NCBI RefSeq assembly: GCF_001424645.1
Contig: NZ_LMQR01000001.1
Span: 2,864,621 to 2,928,620, forward strand
DNA length: 64,000 nucleotides
Origin: Frigoribacterium sp. Leaf415
GTDB taxonomy: Bacteria > Actinomycetota > Actinomycetes > Actinomycetales > Microbacteriaceae
Reading direction: 5' to 3'
Of this stretch, positions 2 to 64,000 are shown one piece after another; positions within the stretch are counted from its first letter, which is position 1; each line of letters begins with the position of its first letter. The position numbers and the translations under genes were made by a program. Below the pieces are notes generated by a model. The model was given only the letters and a program-made list of their open reading frames with translations, was not told the DNA's origin and did no database searches.

Positions 2-145
2 CGTCGCCTCCGCCGCAACTGGTACGGCTCGCGCGAGCGGCGTACCGCAGTCCGCTCCCTCGTGGGCGTCGCCCTCGACGTCGTCGGCGTCTACCGCGAC
101 GGCTACCGCCTCCCCCGGGAGGCGCGCGCGGCCGACCGGCGCTAG
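2..145 (+). CDS. C-terminal end of an unrecognised protein
   Basis: An open frame enters from the left edge and stops with TAG at 143-145, giving 47 residues that are very rich in arginine (motifs NWYGS, LDVVGVYRDGY, LPREARAADRR). Base composition and third-position GC match the neighbouring genes, so it is probably the tail of a real gene, but too little is visible to assign a family. The last codons carry a copy of the dispersed motif core (118-126), read as REAR. The gene converges on the antiporter encoded on the opposite strand, with about 90 bp between them that hold nothing I recognise. Confidence 0.45.
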   Translation, partial: RRLRRNWYGSRERRTAVRSLVGVALDVVGVYRDGYRLPREARAADRR

Positions 146-233
146 TCCCGGTCACCGAGGCGTCCGGGGTGACGTGCTAGCCACATGTGTTGCTTTTTCG
201 CCTACATACGAGGCACCGGGCTATCGGCCGGGG

Positions 234-2090
234 TCAGTCGGCGAGGCGGCCGCGGAGCTCGATCGCGATCTCGGAGGCGTCGAGGTTGGTGAGGGCGTCC
301 GCGAGGACGTCGGCGTCGAACAGGCCGTTGTCGCGGGCGTCGAGCAGGGCCTCCCGCTGCGCGGCCAGCATCGCCAGGGTGTGGGCCACCGACGCGTCGA
401 AGCCCTCCTTCGAGCGGTCGACCGTGCGGGGGTCGGGGCCCGGGACGGTGTCGGCGCTCGTCCGCATCAGCTCGAAGATCTTGGTGCGCTCGGACTCGTT
501 CTGCGCGTGCTCCGCGGCCTCGTCGACCGGCGGCGACAGACGCCGCAACAGGGGCCCGATCGTCCCGCCCTGCAGCAGCAGCGACAGCGCCGCCACCGCG
601 AACGCGATCAACACCAGCACCGGACGCTGCGGGGTGTCCTCGGGCAGCGTCTGCGCCGCCGCGACCGTCACCGCCCCGCGCATGCCCGCCCAGACGACGG
701 CCGTGCCGTCTCGCCAGCCGAGCGGCTGACGCAGGAAGTACTCGATGTCGGCCAGGCCCTGCGTGACGCGCCTCGTGAACTGGTCGAGCGTGCGTTGCGA
801 CGGGGTGCGCGGCGATCGGTCGCGGCCCGATCGGGTGCGCGGCTCGACGCGCCTCGGGCTGCGCGGCGTGCGGGCACGGGGTGACCGACCGGTCGACGCG
901 ACGTCCGCGGGGTCGCCCACCGCGCCTCCTGCGGTGTCGCCGGAACCGGAGCCGGCACGGACACCGGCCTCGAGCTGCCGCGGGTCGCTGCGCGCCCGCC
1001 GGTTCATCTCGGCGAACGAGCCGCCGGCGCCCTCGGACTCGATGCGGTCTTGCATGCTCTGCACCCGCGGCTGCATCGCCTCGGCGTGACGCGCCCTGGC
1101 CGACAGGAAGCGCAGCAGCGGGGCCACGTACGCCGCCCGCACGACGATCGTCAGCGCCAACGCACCGAGCGCGATCAGCAGCGCCGGCACCACGCCGGAG
1201 TGGTCCTCTTGCACGTCCGTGACGATCGACTTGATCTGCAGGCCCATGGTGAGGAAGACGGCCCCCTCGAGCACGAGCTCGACCGTGCGCCAGTTCTGCG
1301 TGTCCGACAGGCGGTTCTGAGGCGAGAGCACCCGAGGCGCCCGGACCCCCGTGACGAGGCCCGCCACCACCGCCGCGACGAGCCCGGACGCCCCGACGGC
1401 GCTCGCCGGGAGCGACGCGACGAACGGCACCGCGAACGAGATCACCGTGTTGACGGTCGAGTCGGTGACGCGCCTCCGCACGGCGAGGTTGGCCCAGCCG
1501 ACGACCAGACCGATCACGAGGGCCACGACGACCGAGTAGGCGAACGTGCCCAGCGCACCCCAGAACGAGAAGGAGGCGGCGGTCGCCACGATCGCGGTGC
1601 GCAACAGCACCAGCGCGGTCGCGTCGTTGAGCAGGCTCTCGCCGTCGAGCATGGCGACGACCCGCTTCGACACCGACGTCTGCTTGACGATCGACGTCGC
1701 GACCGCGTCCGTCGGGCTGATCACGGCGCCGAGCGCGACACCCCAGGCGAAGCCGAGGTCGGGCAGGACGAGCTGGAAGAACACGCCGAGCAGCAGGGCG
1801 GTCGCCACGACCAGCACGACCGACAGGCCGCTGATCGCCCCGAACTCGCGACGGAAGTTCATCGCCGGCATCGACACGGCCGACGAGTAGAGCAGCGGCG
1901 GCAGGACGCCGGCGAGGATCAGCTCGGGGTCGATCTCGATCGCCGCGAACACCGGCAGGAAGCTCGCGGCGACCCCGACGGCGACCAGCAACAGCGGGGC
2001 GGCGACTCCGAGGCGGGGGCCGACGAGGGTCGCAGCGGCGATCACCACGAAACCGGTGACCAGCACGACCAGCAGGTCGGCCATCTCCAT
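234..2090 (-). CDS. CPA1-family Na+/H+ antiporter
   Basis: An integral membrane protein of 618 residues that should exchange sodium (or potassium) for protons across the cytoplasmic membrane. Visible family marks are an N-terminal run of hydrophobic helices, the ISPTDAVA motif (about residues 124-131) with the ion-binding aspartate, the GESLLNDATALVL motif (about 149-161) with a second aspartate, and WAGMRGAVTVA near residue 465. Between the last two transmembrane blocks lies a hydrophilic insertion of about 110 residues rich in R, S, P and G that family members usually lack; it contains one dispersed-motif copy (921-929). The ATG overlaps the stop of the upstream HTH gene (ATGA), so the two are translationally coupled. 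An ATG six bases further in is also possible. Confidence 0.9.
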   Translation of the reverse strand: MEMADLLVVLVTGFVVIAAATLVGPRLGVAAPLLLVAVGVAASFLPVFAAIEIDPELILAGVLPPLLYSSAVSMPAMNFRREFGAISGLSVVLVVATALLLGVFFQLVLPDLGFAWGVALGAVISPTDAVATSIVKQTSVSKRVVAMLDGESLLNDATALVLLRTAIVATAASFSFWGALGTFAYSVVVALVIGLVVGWANLAVRRRVTDSTVNTVISFAVPFVASLPASAVGASGLVAAVVAGLVTGVRAPRVLSPQNRLSDTQNWRTVELVLEGAVFLTMGLQIKSIVTDVQEDHSGVVPALLIALGALALTIVVRAAYVAPLLRFLSARARHAEAMQPRVQSMQDRIESEGAGGSFAEMNRRARSDPRQLEAGVRAGSGSGDTAGGAVGDPADVASTGRSPRARTPRSPRRVEPRTRSGRDRSPRTPSQRTLDQFTRRVTQGLADIEYFLRQPLGWRDGTAVVWAGMRGAVTVAAAQTLPEDTPQRPVLVLIAFAVAALSLLLQGGTIGPLLRRLSPPVDEAAEHAQNESERTKIFELMRTSADTVPGPDPRTVDRSKEGFDASVAHTLAMLAAQREALLDARDNGLFDADVLADALTNLDASEIAIELRGRLAD

Positions 2091-2725
2091 CAGTCGTCGA
2101 CCAGGACGCGGAGGGCCTCGACGAGCGCCCGGTTGCCGGCGCGGAGGGCGGCGACCTCGGCCTCGAGGGCGGTGAGGCGGCTGTCGGCGGGTGCGGGTGC
2201 GGGGCCCGGAGCGGGTGCGGGCTCGGGGTCCGGAGTGGGTGTGGGTGCGGGTGCGGACTGCGGCTCGGGTTCGCTCTCAGGTGTCGGCTCGGGATCGGGG
2301 GCAGGATCTGACGCCGCCCAGGGGTCCTGCTCCGGCTCCGGCTCCGGGTCGGACGCGATGTCTGTCTGCGGTACGGACTCGGTCTGCGACACGGCCTCGA
2401 CGTCGGGCTCGGGCTCGCTCGCGGGCTCCGGAGGTGCGGCGGGCTGCGGAGCCTCGATCGCTTCGTCGTCCGTGGGGGACTCGACCCGCGCCTCCTTGGT
2501 GGTCTTGACGACCTGCGAGAACTTGGGGCGGGGCTTCCGCTTCGGCTTCGCGGACTCGGGCGAGGCCTCGTCGACCCAGTCGCTGAGGGTCTGCCGCGGG
2601 ACGTTGAACTCTTCCGCGACGACGGTGAGGACGTTGCGGTCGGTCGGGTTGGTCATCCGACGCTGCAGCACGCGGGCCGTCGCGGCCTCTCGCGTCTCGT
2701 CGTCGTACCACTCGTCGAAAGGCAT
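2090..2725 (-). CDS. HTH protein with Pro/Glu-rich linker and coiled-coil tail
   Basis: A 211-residue protein in three parts. Residues 1-55 resemble the helix-turn-helix of IS3-type OrfA proteins (a region reading VVAEEFNVPRQTLSDWV). Residues 56-175 are a charged then Pro/Glu/Asp-Pro-rich spacer with short tandem repeats. Residues 176-211 are a predicted coiled coil (LTALEAEVAALRAGNRALVEALRVL). There is no DDE catalytic domain, no second transposase frame and no terminal inverted repeats, so it is not an active transposase; a DNA-binding protein that oligomerises through its tail is more likely. It is the first gene of a two-gene operon with the antiporter and might regulate it. A copy of the dispersed motif (2487-2495) is read here as KEARVE. 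Confidence 0.7.
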   Translation of the reverse strand: MPFDEWYDDETREAATARVLQRRMTNPTDRNVLTVVAEEFNVPRQTLSDWVDEASPESAKPKRKPRPKFSQVVKTTKEARVESPTDDEAIEAPQPAAPPEPASEPEPDVEAVSQTESVPQTDIASDPEPEPEQDPWAASDPAPDPEPTPESEPEPQSAPAPTPTPDPEPAPAPGPAPAPADSRLTALEAEVAALRAGNRALVEALRVLVDD

Positions 2726-2754: not shown

Positions 2755-2783
2755 GGAGGCGCGGGTCACCCGAGCCGCGCCTC
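2755..2783. repeat. Inverted pair of the dispersed motif
   Basis: GAGGCGCGG at 2756-2764 faces CCGCGCCTC at 2775-2783, giving a 9-bp stem with a 10-base loop in the gap between two divergent genes. It lies upstream of the inositol transporter promoter, so it is not a terminator of either neighbour. Confidence 0.6.
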
Positions 2784-6293: not shown

Positions 6294-7822
6294 CCAGCAC
6301 CACCAGCACGCACACCGGCAACGCCGCCACCGATCGCCCCCTGGTCGCGCACTGGATCGACAACGCCGAGGTGCCCGGCACGAGCGGCCGCACCGCCCCC
6401 GTCTACGACCCGGCCCTCGGGGTCGCGACCAAGGACGTCTCGCTTGCCGACGCCTCCGAGATCGAGGCCGCCGTCGCCTCGGCACGACGGGCGTTCCCCG
6501 CCTGGCGCGACCTCTCGATCACGAAGCGTCAGCAGATCATGTTCCGCTTCCGTGAGCTGCTGAACGAGCGCAAGGGCGAACTTGCCGAGATCCTCACGAG
6601 CGAACACGGCAAGGTGCTGAGCGACGCCCTCGGCGAGATCACCCGCGGCCTCGAGGTCGTCGAACTGGCGACCGGGTTCCCCCACCTGATCAAGGGCGAG
6701 TTCTCGCAGCAGGTCTCCACCGGGGTGGACGTCTACTCGACCAAGGCTCCCCTCGGCGTGGTCGGCGTCATCAGTCCCTTCAACTTCCCGGCCATGGTGC
6801 CGATGTGGTTCTTCCCGATCGCGATCGCGGTCGGGAACACCGTCGTGTTGAAGCCGTCCGAGAAAGACCCGTCCAGCGCCATGTTCCTCGCCCGTCTCTT
6901 CGCCGAGGCCGGTTTGCCCGAGGGTGTGTTCAACGTCCTCCACGGCGACAAGGAGGCCGTCGACGGCCTGCTCGAGCACCCCGACGTGAAGGCCATCTCG
7001 TTCGTCGGGTCGACGCCCATCGCCCGGTACATCTACGAGACCGCCGCCCGGCACGGCAAGCGCGTCCAGGCCCTCGGCGGTGCCAAGAACCACATGCTCG
7101 TGCTGCCCGACGCCGACCTCGACCTGGTGGCCGACAGCGCGATCAACGCCGGATTCGGCTCGGCGGGCGAGCGCTGCATGGCCATCAGCGTGGTCGTCGC
7201 GGTCGAACCCGTGGCCGACGAACTGATCGAGAAGATCACCTCACGCATGGCCGGCCTCACCGTCGGCGACGGCCGCCGCAGCTGCGACATGGGCCCTCTC
7301 GTCACCGAGCAGCACCGGGACAAGGTCGCGAGCTACATCGACATCGCCCTCGCCGACGGAGCCGACGTCGTCGTCGACGGCCGGGGCGTCGAGGTCGACG
7401 GTGAGGCCGACGGCTTCTGGCTCGGGCCCACCCTGATCGACAAGGTGCCGCTCACCAGCCGCGTCTACACCGAAGAGATCTTCGGGCCGGTGCTGTCGAT
7501 CGTGCGCGTCGCGTCGTACGACGAGGGCGTCGCCCTCATCAACGCCGGTGCCTACGGCAACGGAACGGCGATCTTCACCAACGACGGAGGCGCGGCGCGG
7601 CGATTCCAGGCCGAGATCGAGGTCGGCATGATCGGCATCAACGTGCCCATCCCGGTGCCCGTCGCGTACTACTCGTTCGGCGGCTTCAAAGACAGCATCT
7701 TCGGTTCGGACAAGGCCTACGGCCTGCAGGGCTTCGAGTTCTACACCCGCGAGAAGGCGATCACGTCGCGCTGGCTGGACCCGAGCCACGGCGGCGTCGA
7801 CCTGGGCTTCCCCCAGAACTGA
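6290..7822 (+). CDS. iolA: CoA-acylating methylmalonate-semialdehyde dehydrogenase
   Basis: A 510-residue aldehyde dehydrogenase of the MmsA/IolA group. It oxidises malonate semialdehyde (and methylmalonate semialdehyde) to acetyl-CoA (propionyl-CoA), with NAD and CoA, as the last step of the inositol route. Visible are the NAD-binding ISPFNFPAMVP (161-171) typical of this branch, the VGSTP turn at 239-243, the catalytic Cys296 in GERCMAI, and EEIFGPVLS. The start is set by the ATGA overlap with the upstream gene; a longer frame exists but would run through that gene. A motif core lies inside at 7586-7594. Confidence 0.93.
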   Translation: MTSTTSTHTGNAATDRPLVAHWIDNAEVPGTSGRTAPVYDPALGVATKDVSLADASEIEAAVASARRAFPAWRDLSITKRQQIMFRFRELLNERKGELAEILTSEHGKVLSDALGEITRGLEVVELATGFPHLIKGEFSQQVSTGVDVYSTKAPLGVVGVISPFNFPAMVPMWFFPIAIAVGNTVVLKPSEKDPSSAMFLARLFAEAGLPEGVFNVLHGDKEAVDGLLEHPDVKAISFVGSTPIARYIYETAARHGKRVQALGGAKNHMLVLPDADLDLVADSAINAGFGSAGERCMAISVVVAVEPVADELIEKITSRMAGLTVGDGRRSCDMGPLVTEQHRDKVASYIDIALADGADVVVDGRGVEVDGEADGFWLGPTLIDKVPLTSRVYTEEIFGPVLSIVRVASYDEGVALINAGAYGNGTAIFTNDGGAARRFQAEIEVGMIGINVPIPVPVAYYSFGGFKDSIFGSDKAYGLQGFEFYTREKAITSRWLDPSHGGVDLGFPQN

Positions 7823-8823: not shown

Positions 8824-10718
<1,895 letters not shown>

Positions 10719-12812: not shown

Positions 12813-13694
12813 GTGGTGAAGATCGCCCTCGACCCCACCCCGCTGCACCACAGCCACTCCCTGCTCGAGCTGCCCGCCAAGGTCGCCGAGCTGGGGTACG
12901 ACCACCTGCAGCTGACGCCGCACCGCGACTTCATCCCGTTCTTCCGGCACCCGAAGGCCGACGACGACCTCGTCGACGCCTTCGCGGCGGCCTGCAAGGA
13001 GGCGCGGGTCGAGATCGCGTCCGTCCTGCCCGTCCTGCGCTGGTCCGGTCCCGACGAGGAGTCCCGTCGGGCCGCCGTCAAGCAGTGGAAGCGCGTCATC
13101 GAGATCACCGCCCGCCTCGGCGTCGAGGTGATCAACACCGAGTTCAGTGGTCGGCCCGAGCTGTCGGAGGAGTCCGAGCGCCAGTTCTACTGGTCGATGG
13201 AAGAGTTGCTGCCCGTCCTCGAACGTGAGGGCATCCGCGTCTTCATCGACCCGCACCCCGACGACTTCGTCGAGGACGGCCTGGAGGCCCTCCGGGTCAT
13301 CCGGGGCCTCAACACGAAGCACGTCGGTCTCGCCTACGTCGCGTGCCACACCTTCCACTACGGCGGCGACATGGACGGGATCATGGCCGCGGCCGGGCAG
13401 TCGCTCGGGCTCGTCCACATCGCCGACACGTTCGACCACCGCCGGTCGCACGGGCTGCGGTACATCTCCAACCCGCCCGGCAACGCGGCCCGTGTGCACC
13501 AGCACCTCAAGATCGGCGACGGTGACGTCGACTGGGACGGCTTCTTCGGCGGCCTGCACCGGCTCGGCTTCTTCGATCGCGACGACACCGTCGCCGTCTC
13601 GAGCGTCTTCGCCGAGGACGAAGCCGTCGACAGCGTCAGCCGCTACCAACGCGAACAGATCACGGCGCGCATCGACGCCGCGTCACACGCCTGA
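12813..13694 (+). CDS. iolH: IolH-type sugar-phosphate isomerase/epimerase
   Basis: A 293-residue xylose-isomerase-like TIM-barrel protein. It begins IALDPTPLHHSHSL as IolH proteins do, and carries the metal-site elements INTEFSG, FIDPHPDDF, VACHTFHYGGD and VHIADTFDH. IolH proteins accompany inositol clusters in actinobacteria and bacilli, but the reaction is not firmly established; an epimerase or isomerase acting on inosose or on a side-chain intermediate is usual. The GTG at 12813 follows GGGGGAA by six bases, starting three bases after iolG. Its stop codon lies inside the first unit of a 17-bp tandem repeat. Confidence 0.85.
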   Translation: MVKIALDPTPLHHSHSLLELPAKVAELGYDHLQLTPHRDFIPFFRHPKADDDLVDAFAAACKEARVEIASVLPVLRWSGPDEESRRAAVKQWKRVIEITARLGVEVINTEFSGRPELSEESERQFYWSMEELLPVLEREGIRVFIDPHPDDFVEDGLEALRVIRGLNTKHVGLAYVACHTFHYGGDMDGIMAAAGQSLGLVHIADTFDHRRSHGLRYISNPPGNAARVHQHLKIGDGDVDWDGFFGGLHRLGFFDRDDTVAVSSVFAEDEAVDSVSRYQREQITARIDAASHA

Positions 13695-15650: not shown

Positions 15651-15842
15651 CCGGCCACGGTAGCGGGCGGGGTGAGGCGCGCCTCCTCGGGGTGAGGCTC
15701 GCCTCCTCCCCAGCGACACCCGACCGGGATCTTGTCCCCGCGTTGACCTCCTGCTGACCGAGTGCTGACGCGCCTCCCGAGAGGCTTGATCCACCGCACA
15801 CCCCGGGCCGGCACACCGGCCCCCTAGCGAAGGAACACGCAC

Positions 15843-16370: not shown

Positions 16371-16444
16371 GCGACCGTGCCCCGTCGACCGGGGCGCGCC
16401 TCCTGGGTTCGCCGTCCGTCCAGTCGAGGGTGAGATCGTCGACC

Positions 16445-18638: not shown

Positions 18639-18737
18639 GGTGCCGTCGCGGCGGCCAGTGCACGATCGGGGCGAGCCGCGCCTCCTCGGGGTCGGAGGCG
18701 GCGGCGGCGGCCGACGAGGCGGCGGCGGCCGTCCGCG

Positions 18738-34496: not shown

Positions 34497-34518
34497 GTGC
34501 CCCAGGAGGCGCGGGTCG

Positions 34519-47465: not shown

Positions 47466-47620
47466 CGGCCCGCGCCTCCCGGCCCGGCGACCCGCGCCTC
47501 CTGGCCTGGCGACCCGCGCCTCCTGACCTGGCGACCCAGGCCCCTTGGCCCGGCGACCCGCGCCTCCTGACCTCGCGATCGGCGCCTCCCGGCCTCGCGA
47601 TCCGCGCCTTCTCGGGGTGT
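47466..47620. repeat. 22-bp tandem array of the dispersed motif
   Basis: Six to seven units of GGCGACCCGCGCCTCCTGGC type follow one another directly behind the stop of the preceding gene. Motif cores lie at 47471, 47493, 47515 and 47559, with decayed copies between, so the motif itself has been amplified in tandem. Confidence 0.85.
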
Positions 47621-48243: not shown

Positions 48244-48298
48244 GGGCGACGGCCGGGCACCGCCCGCCGTCCGACGACGAGCGCAGGAGGCGCGGCGC

Positions 48299-48952
48299 AT
48301 GGACCGAGAACCCGAACGACGACCGCAGGGTCGCGACCACCGCGTCGACGCGGCCCGCTACCGGGTCGACGGCGACGTGCCGAGCGACGACGCGCCCCGC
48401 GACACCCGCACGGCCGCCGAGATGCGGGCCTGGGCCCGCACCGCCATCGACCTGGCGATCGCCCGCGGCGAGTTCGACGACCTGCCGCTCGCCGGCAAGC
48501 CGCTGCCCGGCCTGGCCGGGGGCACGGTCGACCCCGACTGGTGGCTGCGCGGTCTGATCGAGCGCGAAGGACTCACCGGGCTCGCGCCTCCGGCCCTGTC
48601 GTTGCGGGCCGAGAGCACCGGGCTGCACGCCGAGCTCGACCGGCTGCGCTCCGAGGCCGCCGTGCGGTCTCACCTCGAGGACTTCAACGCGCGCATCGTC
48701 GAGGCGAGGCGCCAGCTGTCCGGCGGCCCGCCGGTCGTGACACCCACGCGGGACGTCGACGGCGAGGTGCTGCTCTGGCACGAGCGGCGTCAGGCGCGAC
48801 GAGCCGCCGAGGCCGCGGCCGTGCCACCCCCGCCCCCGAGTTGGCGTGAGAGACGTGCGCTGCGGCGCGAGCTCAAGCGGCGTCGCGGGGTGCCGGGCCC
48901 ACCGTCCGGGCAGGGTGACCCGCACTCACCCGACGATCGATCACCCGCATGA
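48299..48952 (+). CDS. DnaJ-C28 homologue (DUF1992) protein
   Basis: A 217-residue soluble protein with the DUF1992 core AIDLAIARGEFDDLPLAGKPLPGL (about 49-72) and WWLRGLIEREGL, the conserved domain of DnaJ homologue subfamily C member 28; it has no J domain. The C-terminal 70 residues are strongly basic. The biochemical role is not known. The ATG at 48299 is served by AGGAGG (48285-48290), which is itself part of a dispersed-motif copy. Confidence 0.8.
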   Translation: MDREPERRPQGRDHRVDAARYRVDGDVPSDDAPRDTRTAAEMRAWARTAIDLAIARGEFDDLPLAGKPLPGLAGGTVDPDWWLRGLIEREGLTGLAPPALSLRAESTGLHAELDRLRSEAAVRSHLEDFNARIVEARRQLSGGPPVVTPTRDVDGEVLLWHERRQARRAAEAAAVPPPPPSWRERRALRRELKRRRGVPGPPSGQGDPHSPDDRSPA

Positions 48953-49057: not shown

Positions 49058-50239
49058 GTGACGAAGCCCGCCTCCCCGACCTCTCCGGATCAGGGTGGCG
49101 CGACGGCTGGTCACGCCGACGGTGTTGGTCAGAACCCCGCTGGTCACGACCGTGTTGGTCAGAACCCCGCTGGTCACGACGGCGTTCGTCCGCTCGGTGA
49201 GCGTTCGGCCCGACTGGCCCTCGAGCGTCGCGAACGCCGTGCCCGCCGCGACGTGTTGCCCACCTCGCACCGCGAGTCCTTCGTCGAGTGCGCCGCCCTC
49301 GTCGGTGCCGCCGAGGCCGCGGTCGCCCCGCGCGTCCGTCCCCGCCGCGCCGAGGCTCCGGTCCAGACCAGCCCGCTGCTCGGTCTCGAGGAGTCCGCCG
49401 CGACCGAGGCCGCTCGTCCTGCGGTCGCCGCCCGCGCCTCCTCGGTCGCCGCTCACCCCGCGCCTGCCCGTCCCTCGCGTCGGGCCCGCCGTGCCGCGGT
49501 CGTGGCCGCTCGTCCCGTGTCGCCGACCCGTGGTGTCGCCGGTCGTGCCGGAGCGGCGCGCAGCGTCGGCACCGCCGTGAAGAAGCTCTCCATCGTCACC
49601 GCGATCGTCGGCTTCGCCGCCAGCGGCGTGCTGCCTCTGCTCGCGACTACCGGTGACGAGGCCCAGGCCGTCGCCGCGGGTGAGTCGGCGCGGTCGTCGC
49701 TCGGATCGCAGACGCTGTCGGTCGACACCGCGTCGCTGACCGACGAGTCCGACGAGACCGCCCGCGACGCCTACTCGGCCACGTCGATGATCGACGTCGT
49801 GACGCAGAACCTCCAGAACCGCAAGGCCGCGGCGAACACGACCTACGAGGGGCCGACCACGGCCGACTACCTCGCGAACCCGCTCTACCCCGAACTCGAC
49901 CGCGACCAGGTGCTCGCCGTCGCGCTGCAGTACATCGGCACGCCGTACGTGCACGGCGGCGAAGACCCCTCGAAGTTCGACTGCTCGGGCCTGATCACCT
50001 TCGTCTACGCGCAGTTCGGCATCAAGCTGACCCACTACGTGCCGACGCAGAACACCGAGGGGCGCACCATCCCCGAGTCCGAGGCGGTGCCCGGCGACCT
50101 CGTCGTGTTCGACAACCTGGCCCACGACGGCATCTACGCCGGCAACGGGATGATCCTCGACGCCCCGAAGCCCGGCGGCTTCGTCGACGTCCGCCCGATC
50201 TGGAACCAGGCGCACCACTTCGTCCGCATCGACGGCTGA
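49058..50239 (+). CDS. Exported NlpC/P60 (C40) cell-wall peptidase
   Basis: A 393-residue protein with a long charged N-terminus (about 1-165), one hydrophobic segment (KLSIVTAIVGFAASGVLPLLA, about 177-197), a helical spacer and a C-terminal NlpC/P60 domain. Catalytic Cys309 is in FDCSGLITFVYAQFG and His356 in LAHDGIYAGNG, so it should cut peptidoglycan stem peptides. The N-terminus holds an imperfect 33-bp repeat (49117-49184) encoding VGQNPAGHD twice. The GTG follows GAGAGGAC; a GTG at 49022 has weaker support. Such a long cytosolic N-terminus is unusual for this family. Confidence 0.85.
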   Translation: MTKPASPTSPDQGGATAGHADGVGQNPAGHDRVGQNPAGHDGVRPLGERSARLALERRERRARRDVLPTSHRESFVECAALVGAAEAAVAPRVRPRRAEAPVQTSPLLGLEESAATEAARPAVAARASSVAAHPAPARPSRRARRAAVVAARPVSPTRGVAGRAGAARSVGTAVKKLSIVTAIVGFAASGVLPLLATTGDEAQAVAAGESARSSLGSQTLSVDTASLTDESDETARDAYSATSMIDVVTQNLQNRKAAANTTYEGPTTADYLANPLYPELDRDQVLAVALQYIGTPYVHGGEDPSKFDCSGLITFVYAQFGIKLTHYVPTQNTEGRTIPESEAVPGDLVVFDNLAHDGIYAGNGMILDAPKPGGFVDVRPIWNQAHHFVRIDG

Positions 50240-50897
50240 GCCGGGGCCTCGGGGTTCGGTCGCGTCAGGACGACGCGCGCCCTGAGCTGACGACCTGCGC
50301 CTCCGGGGGGTCATCGTGCTGCGTTGATGATCCTCACTTCAGGGGTCGTCGTCCTGCGTTGACGATCCTCACCTCAGGGGTCGCCGTCCTCGGGTGGTGA
50401 CCTGCGCCTCCGGGGTGCGGTCATTCTGCGGTGGTGATCCGCGCCTCCGGGTGTCGTCGTCCTGCGGTGGTGACTCGCGCCTCCGAGGTGTGGTCATCCT
50501 GCGGTGGTGACCTGCGCCTCCGGGGTGTGGTCGTCCTGATGTGGTGACCCGCGCCTCCGGGGTGTGGTCGTCCTGATGTGGTGACCCGCGCCTCCGGGGT
50601 GTCGTCGTCCTCGGGTGGTGATCCGCGCCTCCCGGGGTCCGCCTTCTGGCAGGTCCGCCTTCCGGCGCGTCGGCACCGCGCCGCGTGTGCAATTCGCGAC
50701 CTGTGACGAGCCATCTCGCGTGCCGAACCCGACCACCGGCCGGCGCCGCGCCGCTCATGTTCGTCCGGGGCCGTTCGTCCGGCCCCGGTTGTCGCGATTT
50801 GCACACCGGGGCGGGGGCGGGGACGGCAGGCAGGCAGGCAGGCAGGCGGGTGGGGGGCAGGACCAGGAGGCGCGGGTCGCGACTCCGGGACGACGCG
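50240..50897. other. Gene-free gap containing a 37-bp tandem array
   Basis: This 658-bp gap holds the array at 50290-50640, a GGCA tetranucleotide run at 50825-50850 and a motif copy at 50866. Open frames across it encode only repeat peptides and change frame at every unit because 37 is not a multiple of three. Confidence 0.8.
50290..50640. repeat. 37-bp tandem array containing the dispersed motif
   Basis: About ten units; the best, GTGGTGACCCGCGCCTCCGG plus 17 bases, begin at 50541 and 50578. Each carries the motif core GCGCCTCC (at 50404, 50441, 50478, 50515, 50551, 50588 and 50625, with decayed units before). There are no unique spacers, so this is not a CRISPR array. Confidence 0.88.
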
Positions 50898-52547
50898 CTA
50901 CCCGAGGCGGCCGGTGAGGCGGCCGTGGAACGCCTCGCTGCGGTCGTCCAGCCCGACGAACGTCGCCGTCACGCCGTGCGCCCGGAACTTCTCGTCGACC
51001 GAGTCGAGGGCCGCGACGCTCGACGCGTCCCACACCTGGGCGCGGGACAGGTCGACGGTGACGGCCTCGGGGTCGTCTCCGTAGGAGAAGTGCTCGACGA
51101 GGTCGTTGCTGCTGCCGAAGAAGAGGGGGCCGATGACGTCGTACCGCACCGTCTCGGGGGCCGGGGCAGACCCGGCGACCGCACCCGCGCCTCCTGCGTA
51201 AGAGACGTTCGAGACGTCCGAGGCGTCCGACGTCTCGCCGAGGGCGCCGGTGCCGGTGCCGGTGCCTGCCACGGCGCCCGGCGTCACGTGCCGCTCGACC
51301 GTGATCACGTGGGCCACCCGACGCGCGAACAGCACCATCGCGAGCAGCACGCCGACCGCGACGCCGAGGGCGAGGTTGTTCGTGGCGACGACCACGGCCA
51401 CCGTGACCACCATGACGAGTGTCTCGGGCACCGGCATGCGCCGCAGGGTCGACGGCTTCAGCGAGTGCCAGTCGACCGTGGTGATCGCGACGATCATCAT
51501 GACGGCGGCCAGCGCCACCATCGGGATCGCCGACATCACGGCGCTCAGCCCGGTGACGAGCAGCAGCAGGAAGAGCCCGGCCGCGATCGTCGAGACCCGG
51601 GTGCGGGCCCGTCCGATCTTCACGTTGACGACCGTCTGACCGATCATGGCGCAGCCGGCGATGCCGCCGTAGAAGCCGGCCGCGATGTTCGCGACGCCGA
51701 GCGCCCAGGACTCCTTGCCCTTGTGCGACGGGGTCTCGGTGAGGTCGTCGACGAGCTTGGCGGTCAGCAGGGTCTCCATCAGGCCGACGAAGGCGACGCT
51801 GAGGGCGGTGGGCCAGATGATCTGCAGCGTCTCGAGCGTGAACGGGGCGAGCCACGGGGTCAGGCCGGGCAGGCCGCCGCCCATCGGTCCCTCGTCGCCG
51901 ACGGTGTGCACGTCGAGGCGGGCGGCCACGGCGATGACCGTCACGACGACGATGGCGACCAGCGGCGCCGGCACGGCCTTCGTCACCTTCGGCAACAGCA
52001 CGACGATCGCGATGGTCAGGGCGAACAGCGGGTACACGACCCACGGCTGGTCGATGATGTGCGGCACCTGCGCCACGAAGATCAGCACGCCGAGCGCGTT
52101 GACGAAGCCGATCATGACCGAGCGGGGGATGAACCGCATCAGCCGGGCGAGACCGGCGAGCCCGAAGGCGAGCTGCACGAGCCCGGCCAGGACGACCGTC
52201 GGCAGCACGTAGTCGGTGCCGTGCTCGCGCACCAGCGGCGCGATCACGAGGGCGACCGACCCGGCGGCAGCGGTGACCATCGCCGGCCGGCCGCCGAGCA
52301 CCGACATGACGAGCGCCAGCACGATCGACGCGACGAGGCTGACCATCGGGTCGACCCCGGCGATCACCGAGAACGAGATGACCTCGGGCACGAGGGCGAG
52401 CGTCGTGACGACGCCGGCCAGGGCCTCGCGGGTCAGGAGGCGCGGGTCGCGCAACACGGACAGCACCGTGTCGGCGGGGCGGGCGGGGCGGACCGACCGC
52501 GCGGCGGGTTCAGGGCGCGCGCGGTCGGAGTCGGGGGCAGTGGTCAC
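50898..52547 (-). CDS. SulP-family anion transporter with STAS domain
   Basis: A 549-residue transporter with about twelve helices (1-415) showing EALAGVVTTLALVPEVISFSVIAGVDP, the SulP signature region near the N-terminus, then a STAS domain (about 455-545; VIGPLFFGSSNDLVEHF, VTVDLSRAQVWDASSVAALDSV). It may carry sulfate, bicarbonate or a dicarboxylate. The link between the parts is a Gly/Thr/Ser-rich run that includes a motif copy (51186-51194, read as AGGAG); another motif copy encodes DPRLL near the N-terminus. The GTG start follows GGAG. It is divergent from a MerR gene. Confidence 0.88.
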   Translation of the reverse strand: MTTAPDSDRARPEPAARSVRPARPADTVLSVLRDPRLLTREALAGVVTTLALVPEVISFSVIAGVDPMVSLVASIVLALVMSVLGGRPAMVTAAAGSVALVIAPLVREHGTDYVLPTVVLAGLVQLAFGLAGLARLMRFIPRSVMIGFVNALGVLIFVAQVPHIIDQPWVVYPLFALTIAIVVLLPKVTKAVPAPLVAIVVVTVIAVAARLDVHTVGDEGPMGGGLPGLTPWLAPFTLETLQIIWPTALSVAFVGLMETLLTAKLVDDLTETPSHKGKESWALGVANIAAGFYGGIAGCAMIGQTVVNVKIGRARTRVSTIAAGLFLLLLVTGLSAVMSAIPMVALAAVMMIVAITTVDWHSLKPSTLRRMPVPETLVMVVTVAVVVATNNLALGVAVGVLLAMVLFARRVAHVITVERHVTPGAVAGTGTGTGALGETSDASDVSNVSYAGGAGAVAGSAPAPETVRYDVIGPLFFGSSNDLVEHFSYGDDPEAVTVDLSRAQVWDASSVAALDSVDEKFRAHGVTATFVGLDDRSEAFHGRLTGRLG

Positions 52548-52632: not shown

Positions 52633-53154
52633 ATGAAACGAGACCCCATGCCCGACGAGACCGCCACGATGCAGATCGGCGAGCTCGCCGACCGCACCGA
52701 GATGTCGCTGCGCACGATCCGCCACTACGACGAGGTCGGTCTGCTGACGCCGTCGGGCCGGAGCGAGGGCGGGTTCCGGCTCTACACCCACGACGACTAT
52801 CTGCGGCTCATGGTGATCCGGCGCATGAAGCCGCTGGGGTTCAGCCTCGACGAGATGGCCGAGCTGCTGCGGGTCGTCGACGCGCTCGACCGCGGGGCGG
52901 GCAACGCGGCCGGGGCGGGTGACGCGGCCGGGGCGGGTGACGCGGCCGGGGCGGGTGACGCGGCCGGGGCGGGTGACGACGCCGGGCCGGCGGGCGAGGC
53001 CGGAGCGGGCGACGAGGGTGACGGGCGCGACCAGGCGACCCGCGCCTCCTTGGCGGCGTTCGTCGACGAGACCGTCGAGCGTCGCGCGAAGCTCGAGCGT
53101 CAGCTCGCGATGGCCGACGAGTTCCTCGAGCTGCTGCGCGCCCGCCTGCGCTGA
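52633..53154 (+). CDS. MerR-family regulator with repeat linker
   Basis: A 173-residue regulator with the MerR winged helix (about 13-82: MQIGELADRTEMSLRTIRHYDEVGLLTPSGRSEGGFRLYTHDDYLRLMVIRRMKPLGFSLDEM) and a C-terminal helical effector region without metal-binding cysteines. Between them lies a Gly-Ala-Asp run (about 88-120) encoded by four 18-bp tandem repeats (52902-52980) and a motif copy (53041-53049). The ATG at 52633 is chosen because GAGGG precedes it; 52648 and 52669 are alternatives. It is divergent from the SulP gene and probably regulates it. The ligand is unknown. Confidence 0.82.
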   Translation: MKRDPMPDETATMQIGELADRTEMSLRTIRHYDEVGLLTPSGRSEGGFRLYTHDDYLRLMVIRRMKPLGFSLDEMAELLRVVDALDRGAGNAAGAGDAAGAGDAAGAGDAAGAGDDAGPAGEAGAGDEGDGRDQATRASLAAFVDETVERRAKLERQLAMADEFLELLRARLR

Positions 53155-53164: not shown

Positions 53165-54235
53165 TCAGTCGCGCGCCCACTCGGGGCGGCGGTCGACGAG
53201 CATCTCGGCGTACGACGGGTACCACTCGCCGGCCGGGGGTCCGTCGTTGCAGGTGCCGTCGCTGATGCCCGGCGTCTTGACCCAGAGCAGGGCGTCGAGG
53301 CGGCCGTCGTCGGACACCACGCGAGGGTCTTGGCCGAGGCCGACGTCCTCCGGGTTGCACCAGGTCCCCTTCCAGCCGCGGCCGTTGCGTGACACGTCGA
53401 TCACGTAGCGGCTGCCGCCCGTCATCGCGGCGACCTCCTCGGCGTAGGGCTGTTCGTCGCCCACGGGGTAGAAGCCCGCGACGTTGGTGAAGAAGCCCCG
53501 GGCCTGGTCGATGCCCGCCGCCTCCAGCCGCTCCGCCATCACCTCGGGCTGCACCCAGTGCGAGTTGCCGCCGTCGAGGTAGGCGGGCACGCCGGCCGCC
53601 GCGAAGTCGGCGACGGCCTGCCTCAGCAACGGGAGGCGCGTGTCGGCCACCTGCGGGCACCGGCTCAGCATGCCGAGCGAGTCGGGCTCGACGATGACGA
53701 CGGCCCGGTGCCCGGCGAGGGTGGCCGCGACGGTCGCGTTCCAGGCGGGATAGCGCTCGACGGACAGGCCGCCGGCCGAGTAGTTGCCGCAGTCCCGGTC
53801 GGGGATCGCGTACGTGACGAACACCGGCGTCGCACCCTGCTCCTCGGCGGCGGCGAGGTAGTCGGTGATGACCTTCACGAGCTGCGCGTCGTCGTAGCCG
53901 TCGCCGATCCACATCGCGACGGGACGCTCGGCGATCAGGGCCGCGGCCCGGGCGGCGTCCGTCTCGCCGTCGGCGCTCAGCGTCGCCTCGGCCCGCACCG
54001 CCAGCGAGTTCGGTTCGAGCGCGATGCCGCCGTGGAAGACCGTGCCGGACGGAGCCGTGCGGATCGTCTCGGGCGTCACCCGGGTCGCCTGCGACGTCGG
54101 GGTCGGACTCGGCGTGGCCGACCCGTCGGTCGGCGTCGGACGGGTGGTGTCACCCGACGAGCACGCGGTCAGCAGGACGACGGTGGCCGCGGCGAGCAGG
54201 CCGAGGGTGGTCCGGGCCGGTCGGGACGATGCCAT
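53165..54235 (-). CDS. Glycoside hydrolase family 6 lipoprotein
   Basis: A 356-residue putative endoglucanase or cellobiohydrolase anchored as a lipoprotein (LLTAC, Cys25), with a Thr/Pro/Ser linker to about residue 60 and a GH6 domain. Key residues are visible: YAIPDRDCGNYSAGG with acid Asp148, AVVIVEPDSLGML with Asp185, NSHWVQP, GFFTNVAGFYP and a C-terminal LLWVKTPGISDGTC. It should act on beta-1,4-glucan at the cell surface. It may serve plant-derived cellulose or a cell-wall glucan; neither can be decided here. The ATG follows GAGAGGCGC. Confidence 0.88.
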   Translation of the reverse strand: MASSRPARTTLGLLAAATVVLLTACSSGDTTRPTPTDGSATPSPTPTSQATRVTPETIRTAPSGTVFHGGIALEPNSLAVRAEATLSADGETDAARAAALIAERPVAMWIGDGYDDAQLVKVITDYLAAAEEQGATPVFVTYAIPDRDCGNYSAGGLSVERYPAWNATVAATLAGHRAVVIVEPDSLGMLSRCPQVADTRLPLLRQAVADFAAAGVPAYLDGGNSHWVQPEVMAERLEAAGIDQARGFFTNVAGFYPVGDEQPYAEEVAAMTGGSRYVIDVSRNGRGWKGTWCNPEDVGLGQDPRVVSDDGRLDALLWVKTPGISDGTCNDGPPAGEWYPSYAEMLVDRRPEWARD

Positions 54236-54582
54236 CTGCGCCTCTCTCGGCGCAAGCGGGGATGCTGCCCCGACGGTGGTGGAAGGGACCAGTCGACCAC
54301 GGATGCGGCGGCGGGCACAGGGGCCGAAAGGGGGACACGGCCGTACCTCGCGGGCGCCGGGATCGCCGCCGGGACCGGCGCCCGGGTCGCCGCCGCGTCG
54401 ACGTCTCCTCCCCACGGCGTCGACCACCCCGAGGAGGCGCGGTGCCGCGTGACCGCGCCGGTTCCGACCCGGCCCACTCGGTAGTGTGGGTGGTCCGCGA
54501 GGCCCGAGCGCGGACGCCCCTGCACCACGGCGCACCCCCGGCCTCACCGGACGGGTCGTGCGCACCAGACAGACAGAGAGTC
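54236..54582 (+). promoter_or_regulatory. Divergent gap with candidate promoter for the M23 gene
   Basis: This 347-bp gap between divergent GH6 and M23 genes holds a motif core (54433-54441) and a good -10 hexamer TAGTGT (54482-54487) facing the M23 gene, about 95 bases before its ATG. No convincing -35 box is present at 16-18 bases, so the promoter is tentative. I see no riboswitch-like structure. Confidence 0.35.
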
Positions 54583-56993: not shown

Positions 56994-57944
56994 GTGACCG
57001 TCCGTGACCGCCTCCTCGCCCTCGTCGTCGCCGTCTGCTGGGGCATCAACTTCCCCGTGACGGCGATCGCCCTCGAGCACTTCCCGCCGTTCCTGCTCGT
57101 GGCGCTGCGCTTCACGTTGCTCGCGGTGCCGACCGTGCTGCTGGTGCCGCGTCCGGCGATCCCGTGGTCGCGCCTCCTGCTCGTGGGGGCCACCCTCGGC
57201 ATGCTGCAGTTCGCCTTCCTCTACCTCGGCATCGCGGCGGGCATGCCCTCGGGTCTCGCCTCGCTCGTGTTACAGGCGTCGGCGCCGTTCACGGTCGTGA
57301 TCGCCGGCTTCTGGCTCCGGGAACGCATCACCCGTCGGCAGGCGATCGGCATCGGCATCGCCGTCGTGGGGCTCGTCGTCATCGCGGGGCACCGGTCGCA
57401 GGTCGCGGCGCTGCTGCCCGTCGTGCTGACGCTGTGCGGTGCGCTCGGCTGGGCGATCGGCAACGTGGCCGTGCGACGGGCCGCCCCACCGAACCCGATG
57501 CACCTGACGCTGTGGATGTCGATCGTCGCGCCGGTGCCGATGCTCGCCCTGTCGTTCGTCGTCGAGGGCCCCGAGCGCATCGGTGAGAGCCTCGGCACGG
57601 TCTTCACGCTCGAGGCGCTGCCGTCGGTGCTCTGCCTGCTCTACCTCGTGCTGATCGCCTCGGTCGTGGGCTACGGCATCTGGACGCGCCTGCTCTCGGT
57701 CTACCCCTCGGCCACCGTCGCACCGTTCTCGATGCTCGTGCCCGTGGTCGGCGTGCTGGCCTCGTGGCTGGCGTTCGGCGAGGTGCCCGACCTGGTCGAG
57801 CTCGTCGCCGGCGTCGCGGTGGTCGGCGGTGTGCTCTACGCCAGCCGCGTGCCGAGGGCCCGCGCCGGCGACGGCGACCCCGAGGAGGCGCGGGTCGCCC
57901 CGCCCGCACCGGCCCCCGTCCCCGAGGCCACCCCTCCCCGCTGA
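56994..57944 (+). CDS. EamA-family (DMT) exporter
   Basis: A 316-residue ten-helix transporter made of two EamA repeats (AVCWGINFPVTAIALEHFPP at the start; LCGALGWAIGNVAVRRAAP for the second), similar to RhtA/YdcZ-type amino-acid and metabolite exporters. The GTG at 56994 begins MTVRDRLLALVVAVCWG as usual. The last 25 residues are a hydrophilic tail that starts where a motif copy (57884-57892) is read as EEARVA and continues Pro/Ala-rich, so the motif appears to have been added at the C-terminus. It is probably controlled by the divergent LysR protein. Confidence 0.85.
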   Translation: MTVRDRLLALVVAVCWGINFPVTAIALEHFPPFLLVALRFTLLAVPTVLLVPRPAIPWSRLLLVGATLGMLQFAFLYLGIAAGMPSGLASLVLQASAPFTVVIAGFWLRERITRRQAIGIGIAVVGLVVIAGHRSQVAALLPVVLTLCGALGWAIGNVAVRRAAPPNPMHLTLWMSIVAPVPMLALSFVVEGPERIGESLGTVFTLEALPSVLCLLYLVLIASVVGYGIWTRLLSVYPSATVAPFSMLVPVVGVLASWLAFGEVPDLVELVAGVAVVGGVLYASRVPRARAGDGDPEEARVAPPAPAPVPEATPPR

Positions 57945-59978: not shown

Positions 59979-60712
59979 CGCGATCCCCCCTCGTCGTCGC
60001 GGGCCGGGCCCACGAGGTCGTTCTCGTAGGCGAAGACGACGATCTGGACCCGGTTGCGCATGCCGAGCTTCTGCAGCACCGCCCGGACGTGGCTCTTGAC
60101 CGTCGCCTCGCTCAGCCACGCGCTCTCGGCGATCTCGGCGTTGCTCAGGCCCCGCGCCACGAGCAGGAAGATCTCGCGCTCGCGGGGTGAGAGCACCTCG
60201 AGCGGTTCGCTCCGCCGCTTCGGTGACGGGGTCGGCACGGCGAACGCGTGCACGACGTCGAGCGCGGCGGCCGCGGTCGGCACCGGTTCGCCGGCCGCCG
60301 CCGCGCGGATCGTCGTCAACACCTCGTCGGGCGTCGCGTCCTTCGTCAGGAACGCGTAGGCCCCGGCCTTCAACGCGCTGAACACGGCCTCGTCGCGCTG
60401 GATCGTGGTCAGGGCCACGACGCGCGGGGTCGAGTCGGGGTCGGTGCCGGCCGCCGCGACGATGCGCGTGGTGGCTTCGAGGCCGTTCATCACGGGCATG
60501 CGGAGGTCCATCAGCACGACGTCGGGTCGCTCGCGCTCGACCAGGGCGACGCCGGCGGCCCCGTCGACGGCCGTGCCCACACAGACGAGGTCGGACTGCG
60601 CCTCGATCAGCATCTGCAGCCCCGAAGCGAAGAGCGGCTGGTCGTCGACGACGACCACCCGCACGAGGGCAGGAGGCGCGGTGCGCGTCGTCGCGGTCGT
60701 CACGTCGGTCAT
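59975..60712 (-). CDS. NarL/LuxR-type response regulator
   Basis: A 245-residue regulator with a receiver domain (about 17-138; VVVVDDQPLF, phospho-acceptor Asp69 in VLMDLRMPVMNGLEA, LTKDATPDE with its lysine) and a LuxR helix-turn-helix (about 170-230; LSPREREIFLLVARGLSNAEIAESAWLSEATVKSHVRAVLQKLGMRNR). A motif copy (60672-60680) lies in the disordered N-terminus, read as RTAPPAL. The ATG overlaps the kinase stop by four bases. It pairs with that kinase. Confidence 0.92.
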   Translation of the reverse strand: MTDVTTATTRTAPPALVRVVVVDDQPLFASGLQMLIEAQSDLVCVGTAVDGAAGVALVERERPDVVLMDLRMPVMNGLEATTRIVAAAGTDPDSTPRVVALTTIQRDEAVFSALKAGAYAFLTKDATPDEVLTTIRAAAAGEPVPTAAAALDVVHAFAVPTPSPKRRSEPLEVLSPREREIFLLVARGLSNAEIAESAWLSEATVKSHVRAVLQKLGMRNRVQIVVFAYENDLVGPARDDEGGSR

Positions 60713-61968: not shown

Positions 61969-62081
61969 GTCGACGACCGTAAGGCGTCGTCGTCGGGCCG
62001 CGCGCGCCTCCTGCGGGTTTTCATCCTTCAGGACGAACGCGCCGGCGGTGGGGACGAGCCGTCGGGCCCCCGGCCACGCAG

Positions 62082-62816: not shown

Positions 62817-62931
62817 CGTTCTCCCAGCGCGGACGCAGCCTCGGGGCCATGCGACGTCGGGGGTCGTGCGTAGGCTGACGGGCGCGGGACGAACCGGCGA
62901 ACGACCCCGCCCCACCCCGAGGAGGCGCACC

Positions 62932-63510
62932 ATGGCAGGATTCACCGGCTTCGGCAGGCGGCGCGCGGCCGACCCCCGACTGCCCCCGGGGCAGTACCTC
63001 GAGAGCGGGTTCCCGGTCCTCTCGGCCGGCCCCACGCCGAACATCAAGCGGTGGGAGCTCCAGGTCGCGACCGAGACCGGGCAGCGCTCGCTGAGCTGGG
63101 CCGACTTCCAGGCGCTTCCGCACGAGGCGATCGAGACCGACATCCACTGCGTCACGAGCTGGTCGAAGCTCGGCACGCACTGGCGAGGCGTCTCGCTCGA
63201 CACCCTCTTCGACGGCCTCGAGACCACGCACGAGTTCGCGATGGCGACCAGCCACGGCGGGTACACGACCAACCTGCCGCTCAGCGAGCTGCTGGGAGGC
63301 AAGGCCTGGGTGGTCGACACCTACGAGGGGCAGCCGTTGCACGCCGAGCACGGCGGGCCCGCGCGACTCTTCGTGCCCGGGCTCTACTTCTGGAAGAGCG
63401 CGAAGTGGTTGCAGGGCATCCAGACCATGGCCACCGACCGCCGCGGCTTCTGGGAGAGCATGGGCTACCACCCCCACGGCGACCCGTGGAAGGAAGAACG
63501 GTACGCGTGA
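62932..63510 (+). CDS. Sulfite-oxidase-like molybdopterin oxidoreductase
   Basis: A 192-residue protein of the sulfite oxidase/MsrP fold, reduced to the molybdopterin domain. Cys73 in ETDIHCVTSWSKLGTHWRGV is the molybdenum ligand, and THEFAMATSHGGYTTNLPL and PARLFVPGLYFWKSAKWLQG follow as in the actinobacterial sulfite oxidase-like family. There is no signal peptide, so it is cytosolic; the substrate is unknown. The ATG follows GAGGAGG (62919-62925), part of a motif-like GAGGAGGCGC. The next gene starts over its stop (GTGA) and encodes a flavin reductase that should pass electrons to or from it. Confidence 0.87.
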   Translation: MAGFTGFGRRRAADPRLPPGQYLESGFPVLSAGPTPNIKRWELQVATETGQRSLSWADFQALPHEAIETDIHCVTSWSKLGTHWRGVSLDTLFDGLETTHEFAMATSHGGYTTNLPLSELLGGKAWVVDTYEGQPLHAEHGGPARLFVPGLYFWKSAKWLQGIQTMATDRRGFWESMGYHPHGDPWKEERYA

Positions 63511-64000
63511 GCGAGCCCGTCGCCGGGGCCGGTGGGTCCGACGGGGCCGGTGGCTCCGACCGGGCCGACCCCGCGGGTGACCCGTACGCCTGGCTGCCCG
63601 CCACGATCGTGTCGTCGGTCGCGCAGACGCCCCGAGCCCGCTCGCTGACCCTCGCGGTGCCCGGACTCCGCCCCGCGCGAGCCGGCCAGCACGTCGACCT
63701 GCGCCTGACCGCCGACGACGGCTACACGGCCGTGCGGTCGTACTCGCTGAGCGACGTCCGGGCCTCCGACGGAGCGCGAGGCGCAGGAGGCGCGGGTCCG
63801 GTCCCGCAGATCGAGGTCACCGTCGAGCGCCTCGACGACGGCGAGGTCTCGCCCTACCTGGTCGACGCGGCCGAACCGGGCGACCCGATCGAGGTGCGCG
63901 GCCCGATCGGCGGTTGGTTCGTCTGGCCGCCGACCGAGTTCGAACCCGAGTCGGCCGTGCACGCGGTGCTGCCCGAGCCCGAGGGGGCGACTCCGCCGAC
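63507..64000 (+). CDS. Ferredoxin-NADP reductase-type flavoprotein, cut by window end
   Basis: The first 164 residues of an FAD-binding oxidoreductase. After a Gly/Asp-rich N-terminus comes the FNR-type FAD domain with AGQHVDLRL, the flavin-binding RSYSLS, VERLDDGEVSPYLV and VRGPIGGWFVW. The NAD(P) domain lies beyond the window. The loop after RSYSLS is enlarged by ASDGARGAGGAGPVP, encoded by a motif copy (63786-63794). The GTG overlaps the stop of the molybdopterin gene, a standard pairing of oxidase-like subunit and reductase. Confidence 0.85.
   Translation, partial: MSEPVAGAGGSDGAGGSDRADPAGDPYAWLPATIVSSVAQTPRARSLTLAVPGLRPARAGQHVDLRLTADDGYTAVRSYSLSDVRASDGARGAGGAGPVPQIEVTVERLDDGEVSPYLVDAAEPGDPIEVRGPIGGWFVWPPTEFEPESAVHAVLPEPEGATPP

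Follow-up and report, generated by a model that had tools for sequence, protein, structure and literature searches.

Self-specific DNA uptake sequences are well established in two families, the Neisseriaceae and the Pasteurellaceae, both Gram-negative. Here we consider a 9-mer, GGAGGCGCG (the core), in a 64-kb stretch of DNA from Frigoribacterium sp. Leaf415 (C1:2864621-2928620; the window), C1 being one of four contigs in a genome of 3.42 Mb. The core is far more frequent than chance allows, throughout the genus, and on balance we favour the view that it is a genus-wide self tag working like a DNA uptake sequence (DUS). Such a tag would be, to our knowledge, the first known in actinobacteria; in the open-licence portion of PubMed Central, itself covered in part, no earlier description from actinobacteria was found.

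Several described systems resemble the core in some respects. Its density is similar to that of the Pasteurellacean uptake signal sequence (USS). HIP1, of cyanobacteria, is a palindromic octamer linked to methyltransferases. In the Neisseriaceae, inverted DUS pairs are tied to terminators (PMC3630211), and the core is like the DUS/ComP system described there in being a word of about 10 bp with many copies, genic and intergenic, terminator-linked inverted pairs and clade-specific forms. It differs in sequence and phylum, it persists in genomes without PilB and PilT, its form in a related genus (Curtobacterium) is a hairpin and not a scattered tag, and its receptor and uptake bias are putative. 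Like the USS, it combines a 9-bp core with less conserved flanking bases (PMC1939737); unlike the USS, it is GC-rich, lacks A/T-rich side regions and belongs to a Gram-positive host, in which uptake is putative. Like HIP1, it is a short word much commoner than expected throughout a clade (PMC4390886), but unlike HIP1 it is non-palindromic; methyltransferases were not part of the search. Micrococcus luteus provides a parallel on the side of the machinery: it is an actinobacterium with ComEA/ComEC in which Tad pili are required for transformation (PMC4322843, PMC6370729), and the combination of the two is described as frequent in the phylum (PMC4322843). The term 'uptake sequence' is absent from PMC4322843. 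Finally, the core resembles repetitive extragenic palindromic (REP) elements and their RAYT transposases in its many short copies, some palindromic, but REP elements are extragenic, whereas genic copies of the core predominate and no RAYT was found in 16 genomes of the genus.

Excess, strand symmetry and sharpness of the core

The window contains 74 exact cores on its two strands (positions 118 to 63794), more than of any other 9-mer. In 100 dinucleotide shuffles of the window, the core occurred 6.14 times on average (sd 2.45, maximum 12), and Markov models of order 1–4 predict 2.7–6.5 copies, with 13.5 at order 5 and 35 at order 6. An earlier note on this DNA had put about 70 copies on either strand against about five expected from composition, and both estimates were accurate. 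Its statement that a 15-bp motif recurs about once per kilobase holds for the core (1.16 per kb) but not for the 15-mer itself, CAGGAGGCGCGGGTC, of which there are 16 exact copies (0.25 per kb). A 13-mer, GGAGGCGCGGGTC, occurs 25 times in the window, and the commonest long form of the core is (C)AGGAGGCGCGGGTCG. The core is preceded by A in 49 of the 74 window copies; GGTCG is the favoured continuation after it and GGTGC the second common one.

The window is denser in cores than 19 evenly spaced 20-kb stretches of C1, which gave 0.67 per kb (255 in 380 kb). Thirty-six window cores are genic and 38 intergenic, counts that, like all such divisions here, are approximate because they depend on a home-made gene caller. 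When the window and the 19 stretches are pooled (444 kb), 195 of 329 cores are genic (0.49 per kb) and 134 intergenic (2.69 per kb), a 5.4-fold difference in density. Convergent gaps are the richest, with 5.5 cores per kb, versus 1.9–2.6 per kb in other gaps. In 40 rounds of synonymous codon shuffling of 425 genes, the mean number of genic cores was 36.3 (sd 5.7, maximum 54) versus the 195 observed; for the 13-mer, 2.2 copies were expected and 44 observed. Four rearranged 9-mers with the letters of the core were not raised, all lying below their own synonymous-shuffle means. The motif thus survived the codon-preserving shuffle and the Markov models of order 1–4 that the earlier note had called for. 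These data, together with the dinucleotide shuffles, rule out chance or codon usage as the source of the excess.

Neither strand is preferred. Genome-wide, the 13-mer is found 264 times forward and 270 times in reverse (534 in all), and its backward-read control is never found. Genic cores number 89 sense and 106 antisense, with 17.5 and 19.7 expected, an excess of about 5-fold in each case. Since the sense and antisense excess are alike, the signal must reside in double-stranded DNA, free of orientation, and not in RNA. Single intergenic cores in co-directional gaps divide into 19 sense and 30 antisense. No strand skew was seen over any half partition of C1 (P = 0.46; best partition 54.7%, random mean 54.6%), an approximate test, since C1 covers only part of the chromosome.

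The core is also sharply bounded. In the 444-kb sample there are 182 copies of AGGAGGCGCGG, while its 27 single-change core neighbours total 58 (the largest 18); the bases just outside the core vary in a graded manner. On these counts, a sharp core with a graded edge is the picture of protein recognition, and not that of a decaying repeat. The ratio of exact copies to the mean neighbour is 94 for G005, G006, G010 and G013 pooled, 27 for G001, G011 and G015 pooled, 41 in G007, 41 in G002, 75 in G014 and, on 11 copies only, 91 in G008 (all genomes of the genus).

Neighbouring cores often form pairs. Among those at most 120 bp apart, 20 pairs are hairpin-facing, 13 face the opposite way and 21 point in the same direction. 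Nine of the 20 hairpin-facing pairs are exactly 28 bp apart, and their inner sequences differ. Six hairpins were folded, five from the genus and one from Curtobacterium, and five of these are far more stable than their shuffles (z −4.5 to −9.0); the exception (z −1.6) is one of the five from the genus. Location downstream of genes, a trait of intrinsic terminators, is true of inverted pairs only. The inverted pairs, tandem arrays and genic copies described by the earlier note were all confirmed in the window (Table 1).

Conservation and distribution

We aligned the window with orthologous stretches of four relatives (G005, G006, G010 and G013; 90–93% identical), excluding 117 of 296 site-by-relative cases as unaligned. 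At these orthologous loci, where the earlier note had proposed to look, cores are much better conserved than 9-mers of matched composition: genic ones are unchanged in 88 of the 105 aligned cases, compared to 858 of 1864 for the controls (P = 8e-15), and intergenic cores in 45 of 74, compared to 130 of 345 (P = 4e-4). Third codon positions differ at a rate of 0.054 in the core versus 0.154 in the flanks, and first positions at 0.028 versus 0.078, with no significant difference at second positions (P = 0.19). Among the 17 changed genic cases, 12 are substitutions and 5 are gapped, all 5 in the cluster at 31797-31880. There are also 19 cases in which a relative has a core and the window does not; in 14 of these, spread over nine sites, the difference amounts to one or two substituted bases within the 9-mer, the flanks being poor in some, and the remaining 5 fall in poorly aligned stretches. 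Genic core sites lie in less conserved stretches than the gene average (0.097 versus 0.072, P = 0.018), as one would predict for tags that become established in tolerant places.

Each of the 16 genus genomes searched carries the 13-mer, at 141–553 copies versus 0–3 for controls. The genus belongs to the Microbacteriaceae, in the neighbourhood of Frondihabitans, Curtobacterium and Cryobacterium. In a survey of 398 genomes of this family (10 of them from the genus), only the genus and, more weakly, Curtobacterium were clearly above control, with 4–60 copies in nine Curtobacterium genomes and no more than 10 in every other family genome outside the genus. The GGTGC form, counted in 179 genomes, shows a similar restriction: 86–234 copies in four genomes of the genus, 16–285 in three of Curtobacterium and at most 7 elsewhere. 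The excess of the core is real, genus-wide and maintained.

The word GGAGGCGCGGTGC is common to the genus and Curtobacterium, occurring in the latter mostly as hairpins; two Curtobacterium genomes have about 140 copies of it per strand. In eight Curtobacterium stretches (L064-L071), 27 cores are intergenic and 13 genic (0.09 genic cores per kb), and all 11 hairpins found share one 14-bp spacer. This hairpin is a 32-bp near-perfect palindrome built on the same core. No such hairpin was found at eight named Curtobacterium leuS loci, where spacers of 8–22 bp were sought. A scan of named loci in other genera gave no clear second word, in a procedure of limited sensitivity, which picked up our own motif at just 2 of the 3 positive-control loci. 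GGATGCC occurs at ∼2.5–4 times its third-order Markov expectation in named loci of Agromyces, Microbacterium, Subtercola, Mycetocola, Herbiconiux, Cryobacterium and Leifsonia, and is not raised in those of Leucobacter, Rathayibacter, Frondihabitans, Plantibacter and Demequina.

Contigs C2 and C3 of the same genome hold 83 cores in 120 kb. We considered these contigs as plasmids and dropped the idea: C2 carries tRNA-Ser and tRNA-Arg genes, and, judged by translations, C2 also encodes seryl-tRNA synthetase and C3 encodes DnaK, DnaJ, ClpB and PurA. Because of these tRNA and housekeeping genes, both contigs are most likely chromosomal, and hence their core density is uninformative on plasmids. Among viral contigs, the pattern matched at least 120 loci, with a single match in every one of the 80 listed, which is background and says nothing on phages of the genus.

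Competence genes and prophages in dprA

The Leaf415 genome encodes a set of candidate uptake components. ComEA and ComEC adjoin leuS, and ComEA adjoins ComEC in all four genomes looked at. A type IVa pilus operon comprises PilB, a second T2SSE ATPase taken as PilT, PilC, PilM, PilO, PilD and pilins, and a small tad locus comprises a TadA-like ATPase, a T2SSF protein, a DUF4244 protein read as Flp-like, and TadE. The search for competence genes, another check proposed in the earlier note, found ComEC and DprA in all 16 genomes of the genus (DprA split in 2), and a presumed TadA ATPase, by weak match, likewise in 16 of 16. As a side observation, ComEC and the DNA polymerase III delta subunit share one open frame in Leaf415 (L082:10617-14102) and occupy different frames in G002.

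PilB and PilT were found in 13 of the 16 genomes; the other three, G002, G007 and G014, show only the weaker presumed-TadA match, a difference noted against stretch L080 of Leaf415 (C1:2406001-2426000). PilM is missing in G002 and G007, the two of these that were searched for it. A LeuS tree unites the three genomes (support 0.999). Cores are conserved among them, being identical in 43 of 70 genic cases versus 352 of 1735 controls and in 11 of 16 intergenic cases versus 34 of 210, figures drawn from three pairs that are not independent. Since the core is kept without PilB and PilT, the tag is independent of the type IVa pilus. The Tad/Flp pilus would be the likelier machine, by analogy with M. 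luteus, whose transformation requires Tad pili.

Two species of the genus, G002 and G013, have dprA interrupted at nearly the same position by different prophages, 18.1 and 18.5 kb long (G002:C1:170363-188476, L359/L360; G013:C1:604247-622724, L361/L362), both with integrase, terminase, portal and tail genes. The 5′ parts of the gene end at residues 270 and 275 of 420, respectively; the 3′ part starts at residue 266 in G013, and its match in G002 reaches back, weakly, to 196. The two insertions look independent, given an identity of 45% between the integrases and hosts that lie in different branches. These prophages contain no core in 36.6 kb, where 11–18 would be predicted from host genic densities and about one from composition (a hand estimate). 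Mobile elements that break comYC, comK, comFA or comM have been read as blocking their own removal by transformation (PMC4774983).

Weighing the explanations

A self tag of the uptake type explains more of the pattern than its rivals do. The core is a short word above chance on both strands, found within and between genes and in permissive places, with inverted pairs at gene ends. Its copies are kept, gained or lost in place by substitution, mainly in genes, and competence machinery is encoded, though such machinery does not discriminate. We envision that a surface protein of the competence machinery would act as receptor, binding the tag, whichever way it faces, in free double-stranded DNA. 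A filament, most likely the Tad/Flp pilus, would pull the tagged DNA in, ComEA/ComEC would carry it through the membrane and DprA would aid its recombination. Tagged DNA from kin would replace untagged or mutated alleles, and new tags would spread through this uptake bias, by drive, wherever they are tolerated, that is, between genes and in permissive codons, with inverted pairs settling as hairpins where terminators belong. A fuller version, which we put forward as a tentative possibility, is that of an actinobacterial uptake sequence read by a Tad/Flp competence machine, born of the terminator hairpin shared with Curtobacterium and opposed by the prophages in dprA. If a self tag is indeed present, it would represent a third, independent case, in an actinobacterial genus with competence genes. 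One could then ask whether a bias in any receptor is enough to produce tags by drive, whether an outer membrane or a type IVa pilus is required for them, and by what means actinobacterial prophages combat transformation.

A number of observations weigh against an uptake tag. After clusters are collapsed, the spacing of window cores is random, and regular spacing was not found. Genic density in the window is flat with sharing (0.64, 0.71 and 0.52 per kb for DNA present in 3–4, 1–2 and 0 relatives), so that enrichment in DNA common to relatives was not found there either. The over-represented GGTCG and preceding A are conserved no better than distant flanks (0.099 and 0.113 versus 0.100–0.114, genic); the weaker preferred flanks are thus seen by counts, and their conservation in place is not beyond background. 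Changed intergenic copies (29 cases) involve indels in 16 cases and substitutions in 13. Sampled stretches of G008 are sparse (0.25 per kb), though the genome total is 468. Competence genes are near-universal, with ComEC in 10 and DprA in 11 of 14 control genomes, and of 85 genera in the family 51 have PilM, the motif being absent from 49 of these; as far as gene matches go, none of ComEC, DprA and PilM tracks it. Type IVa pilus dependence, a trait of neisserial DUS/ComP, is absent in G002, G007 and G014 (ComP was not searched), and a type IVa pilus as sole machine is ruled out by the sharp, conserved core of these genomes. The Curtobacterium hairpin, with its few genic copies, suggests that the hairpin may predate, or be independent of, a role as tag. 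One caveat on the core-free prophages is that they are two foreign elements only, from which any motif accumulated by the host, whatever its function, would be missing.

The main alternative, somewhat unlikely in our estimation, is a site for a chromosomal protein (in nucleoid organization, repair, segregation or another role), a non-palindromic counterpart of HIP1 unrelated to uptake. A site of this kind fits a core that is sharp, conserved and free of orientation, independent of the type IVa pilus and irregularly spaced, and it fits the restriction of conservation in place to the 9 bp, extension excluded. It accounts less well for the absence of strand skew over half partitions of C1, though not all such sites are skewed, and by itself predicts neither hairpin pairs in convergent gaps nor prophage insertion into dprA. 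Strand symmetry also bears on an FtsK-orienting (KOPS) or Chi-like recombination signal, which the earlier note had named as a parallel. The motif is short, dense and genome-wide as such signals are, but with 264 forward and 270 reverse copies, no better partition of C1 than random, and a preference of the core for intergenic DNA, this explanation is scarcely credible, and is refuted insofar as strand bias defines such signals.

Two further explanations start from the palindromic copies. One holds that the motif is the stem of terminators spread by recombination, single copies being remnants or coincidences. The high density in convergent gaps, the stable folds of five of the six tested hairpins and the uniform spacer of the 11 Curtobacterium hairpins, in a genus with few genic copies, all point this way. 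Most copies in our genus, however, are genic (195 of 329), sense and antisense alike, and conserved there, and remnants would give a spectrum of single mismatches, which are rare. We therefore regard a terminator or RNA-hairpin family as improbable. The other, a palindromic repeat, mobile or of the REP type, propagated by a transposase, draws on the high copy number, hairpins and tandem arrays, and on the gaps at about half of changed intergenic copies. No Y1/RAYT transposase was found in the 16 genomes of the genus searched, so a RAYT-driven repeat was rejected; moreover, 12 of the 17 changed genic copies changed by substitution, the 5 gapped ones all falling in one repeat cluster, and the same 195 copies lie inside genes. 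A REP-like repeat is thus very improbable, and the comparison with palindromic elements in the earlier note fails on the single genic copies and the missing RAYT. Its other suggestion, that the motif is most like an uptake signal, stands as the best reading, with the qualifications that a type IVa pilus is not needed and that uptake is something we infer.

Table 1. Exact cores, core pairs and core arrays in the window (window positions).
Feature	Position	Strand	Setting	Remarks
Inverted pair, 21 bp start to start	18596..18625		convergent gap	fold −40.2 kcal/mol, z −5.4
Inverted pair, 28 bp start to start	28203..28239			weak fold, z −1.6
Inverted pair, 28 bp start to start	29884..29920		divergent gap	fold −43.5 kcal/mol, z −7.5
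Inverted pair, 27 bp start to start	42893..42928		convergent gap	fold −36.3 kcal/mol, z −4.5
Three same-frame cores	31797..31880	−	one gene	gapped versus relatives
Four same-strand cores	44396..44690	−	intergenic cluster	
Tandem array, 22-bp unit	47462..47609	−		4 exact cores (47471-47567)
Tandem array, 37-bp unit	50292..50638	−		5 exact cores (50440-50632)
Core	118..126	+	genic	
Core	921..929	−	genic	
Core	1469..1477	−	genic	
Core	2487..2495	−	genic	identical in 4/4 relatives
Core	2755..2763	+	intergenic	inside full 15-mer
Core	7586..7594	+	genic	
Core	9070..9078	+	genic	
Core	12998..13006	+	genic	
Core	15678..15686	−	intergenic	
Core	15769..15777	−	intergenic	
Core	16395..16403	−	intergenic	
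Core	16822..16830	−	genic antisense	
Core	18077..18085	+	genic	
Core	18677..18685	−	intergenic	
Core	21061..21069	−	genic antisense	
Core	23113..23121	−	genic antisense	
Core	24823..24831	−	intergenic	
Core	25587..25595	+	genic antisense	identical in 4/4 relatives
Core	26007..26015	−	intergenic	
Core	26740..26748	+	intergenic	
Core	28909..28917	+	genic antisense	identical in 4/4 relatives
Core	32039..32047	−	genic	
Core	33354..33362	−	genic	
Core	34505..34513	+	intergenic	
Core	34686..34694	−	genic	
Core	36154..36162	+	genic	
Core	36375..36383	−	genic antisense	
Core	37295..37303	+	intergenic	
Core	39710..39718	+	intergenic	identical in 4/4 relatives
Core	41783..41791	−	antisense in transketolase gene	identical in 4/4 relatives
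Core	41926..41934	+	sense in transketolase gene	identical in 4/4 relatives
Core	44001..44009	+	genic antisense	identical in 4/4 relatives
Core	45458..45466	−	genic	
Core	46179..46187	+	genic antisense	
Core	46558..46566	+	intergenic	
Core	46822..46830	−	intergenic	
Core	48286..48294	+	intergenic	identical in 4/4 relatives
Core	48583..48591	−	genic antisense	
Core	49433..49441	−	genic antisense	identical in 4/4 relatives
Core	50866..50874	+	intergenic	
Core	51186..51194	−	genic	
Core	52436..52444	+	genic antisense	identical in 4/4 relatives
Core	53041..53049	−	genic antisense	identical in 4/4 relatives
Core	53632..53640	+	genic antisense	identical in 4/4 relatives
Core	54433..54441	+	intergenic	
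Core	57169..57177	−	genic antisense	identical in 4/4 relatives
Core	57884..57892	+	genic	
Core	60672..60680	+	genic antisense	identical in 4/4 relatives
Core	62003..62011	−	intergenic	identical in 4/4 relatives
Core	63786..63794	+	genic	

The 37-bp array at 50292-50638 is unaligned in G005, G006 and G010. The window also holds a second intergenic element of palindromic form, its arms being GTCGTGACATCTC and GCCGCTCAC, at 31679-31735, 32946-33005, 34439-34454 and 58009-58066, and this element recurs in stretches L001, L014 and L015; all 14 copies of its 13-mer in the 444-kb sample are intergenic. Another palindrome, GATCCGGTACGTACCGGATC, is found at L001:6918-7030, L015:15846 and L017:3352. Its centre occurs three times exactly, close together, in L001, and from this arrangement it looks like the operator of a regulator.

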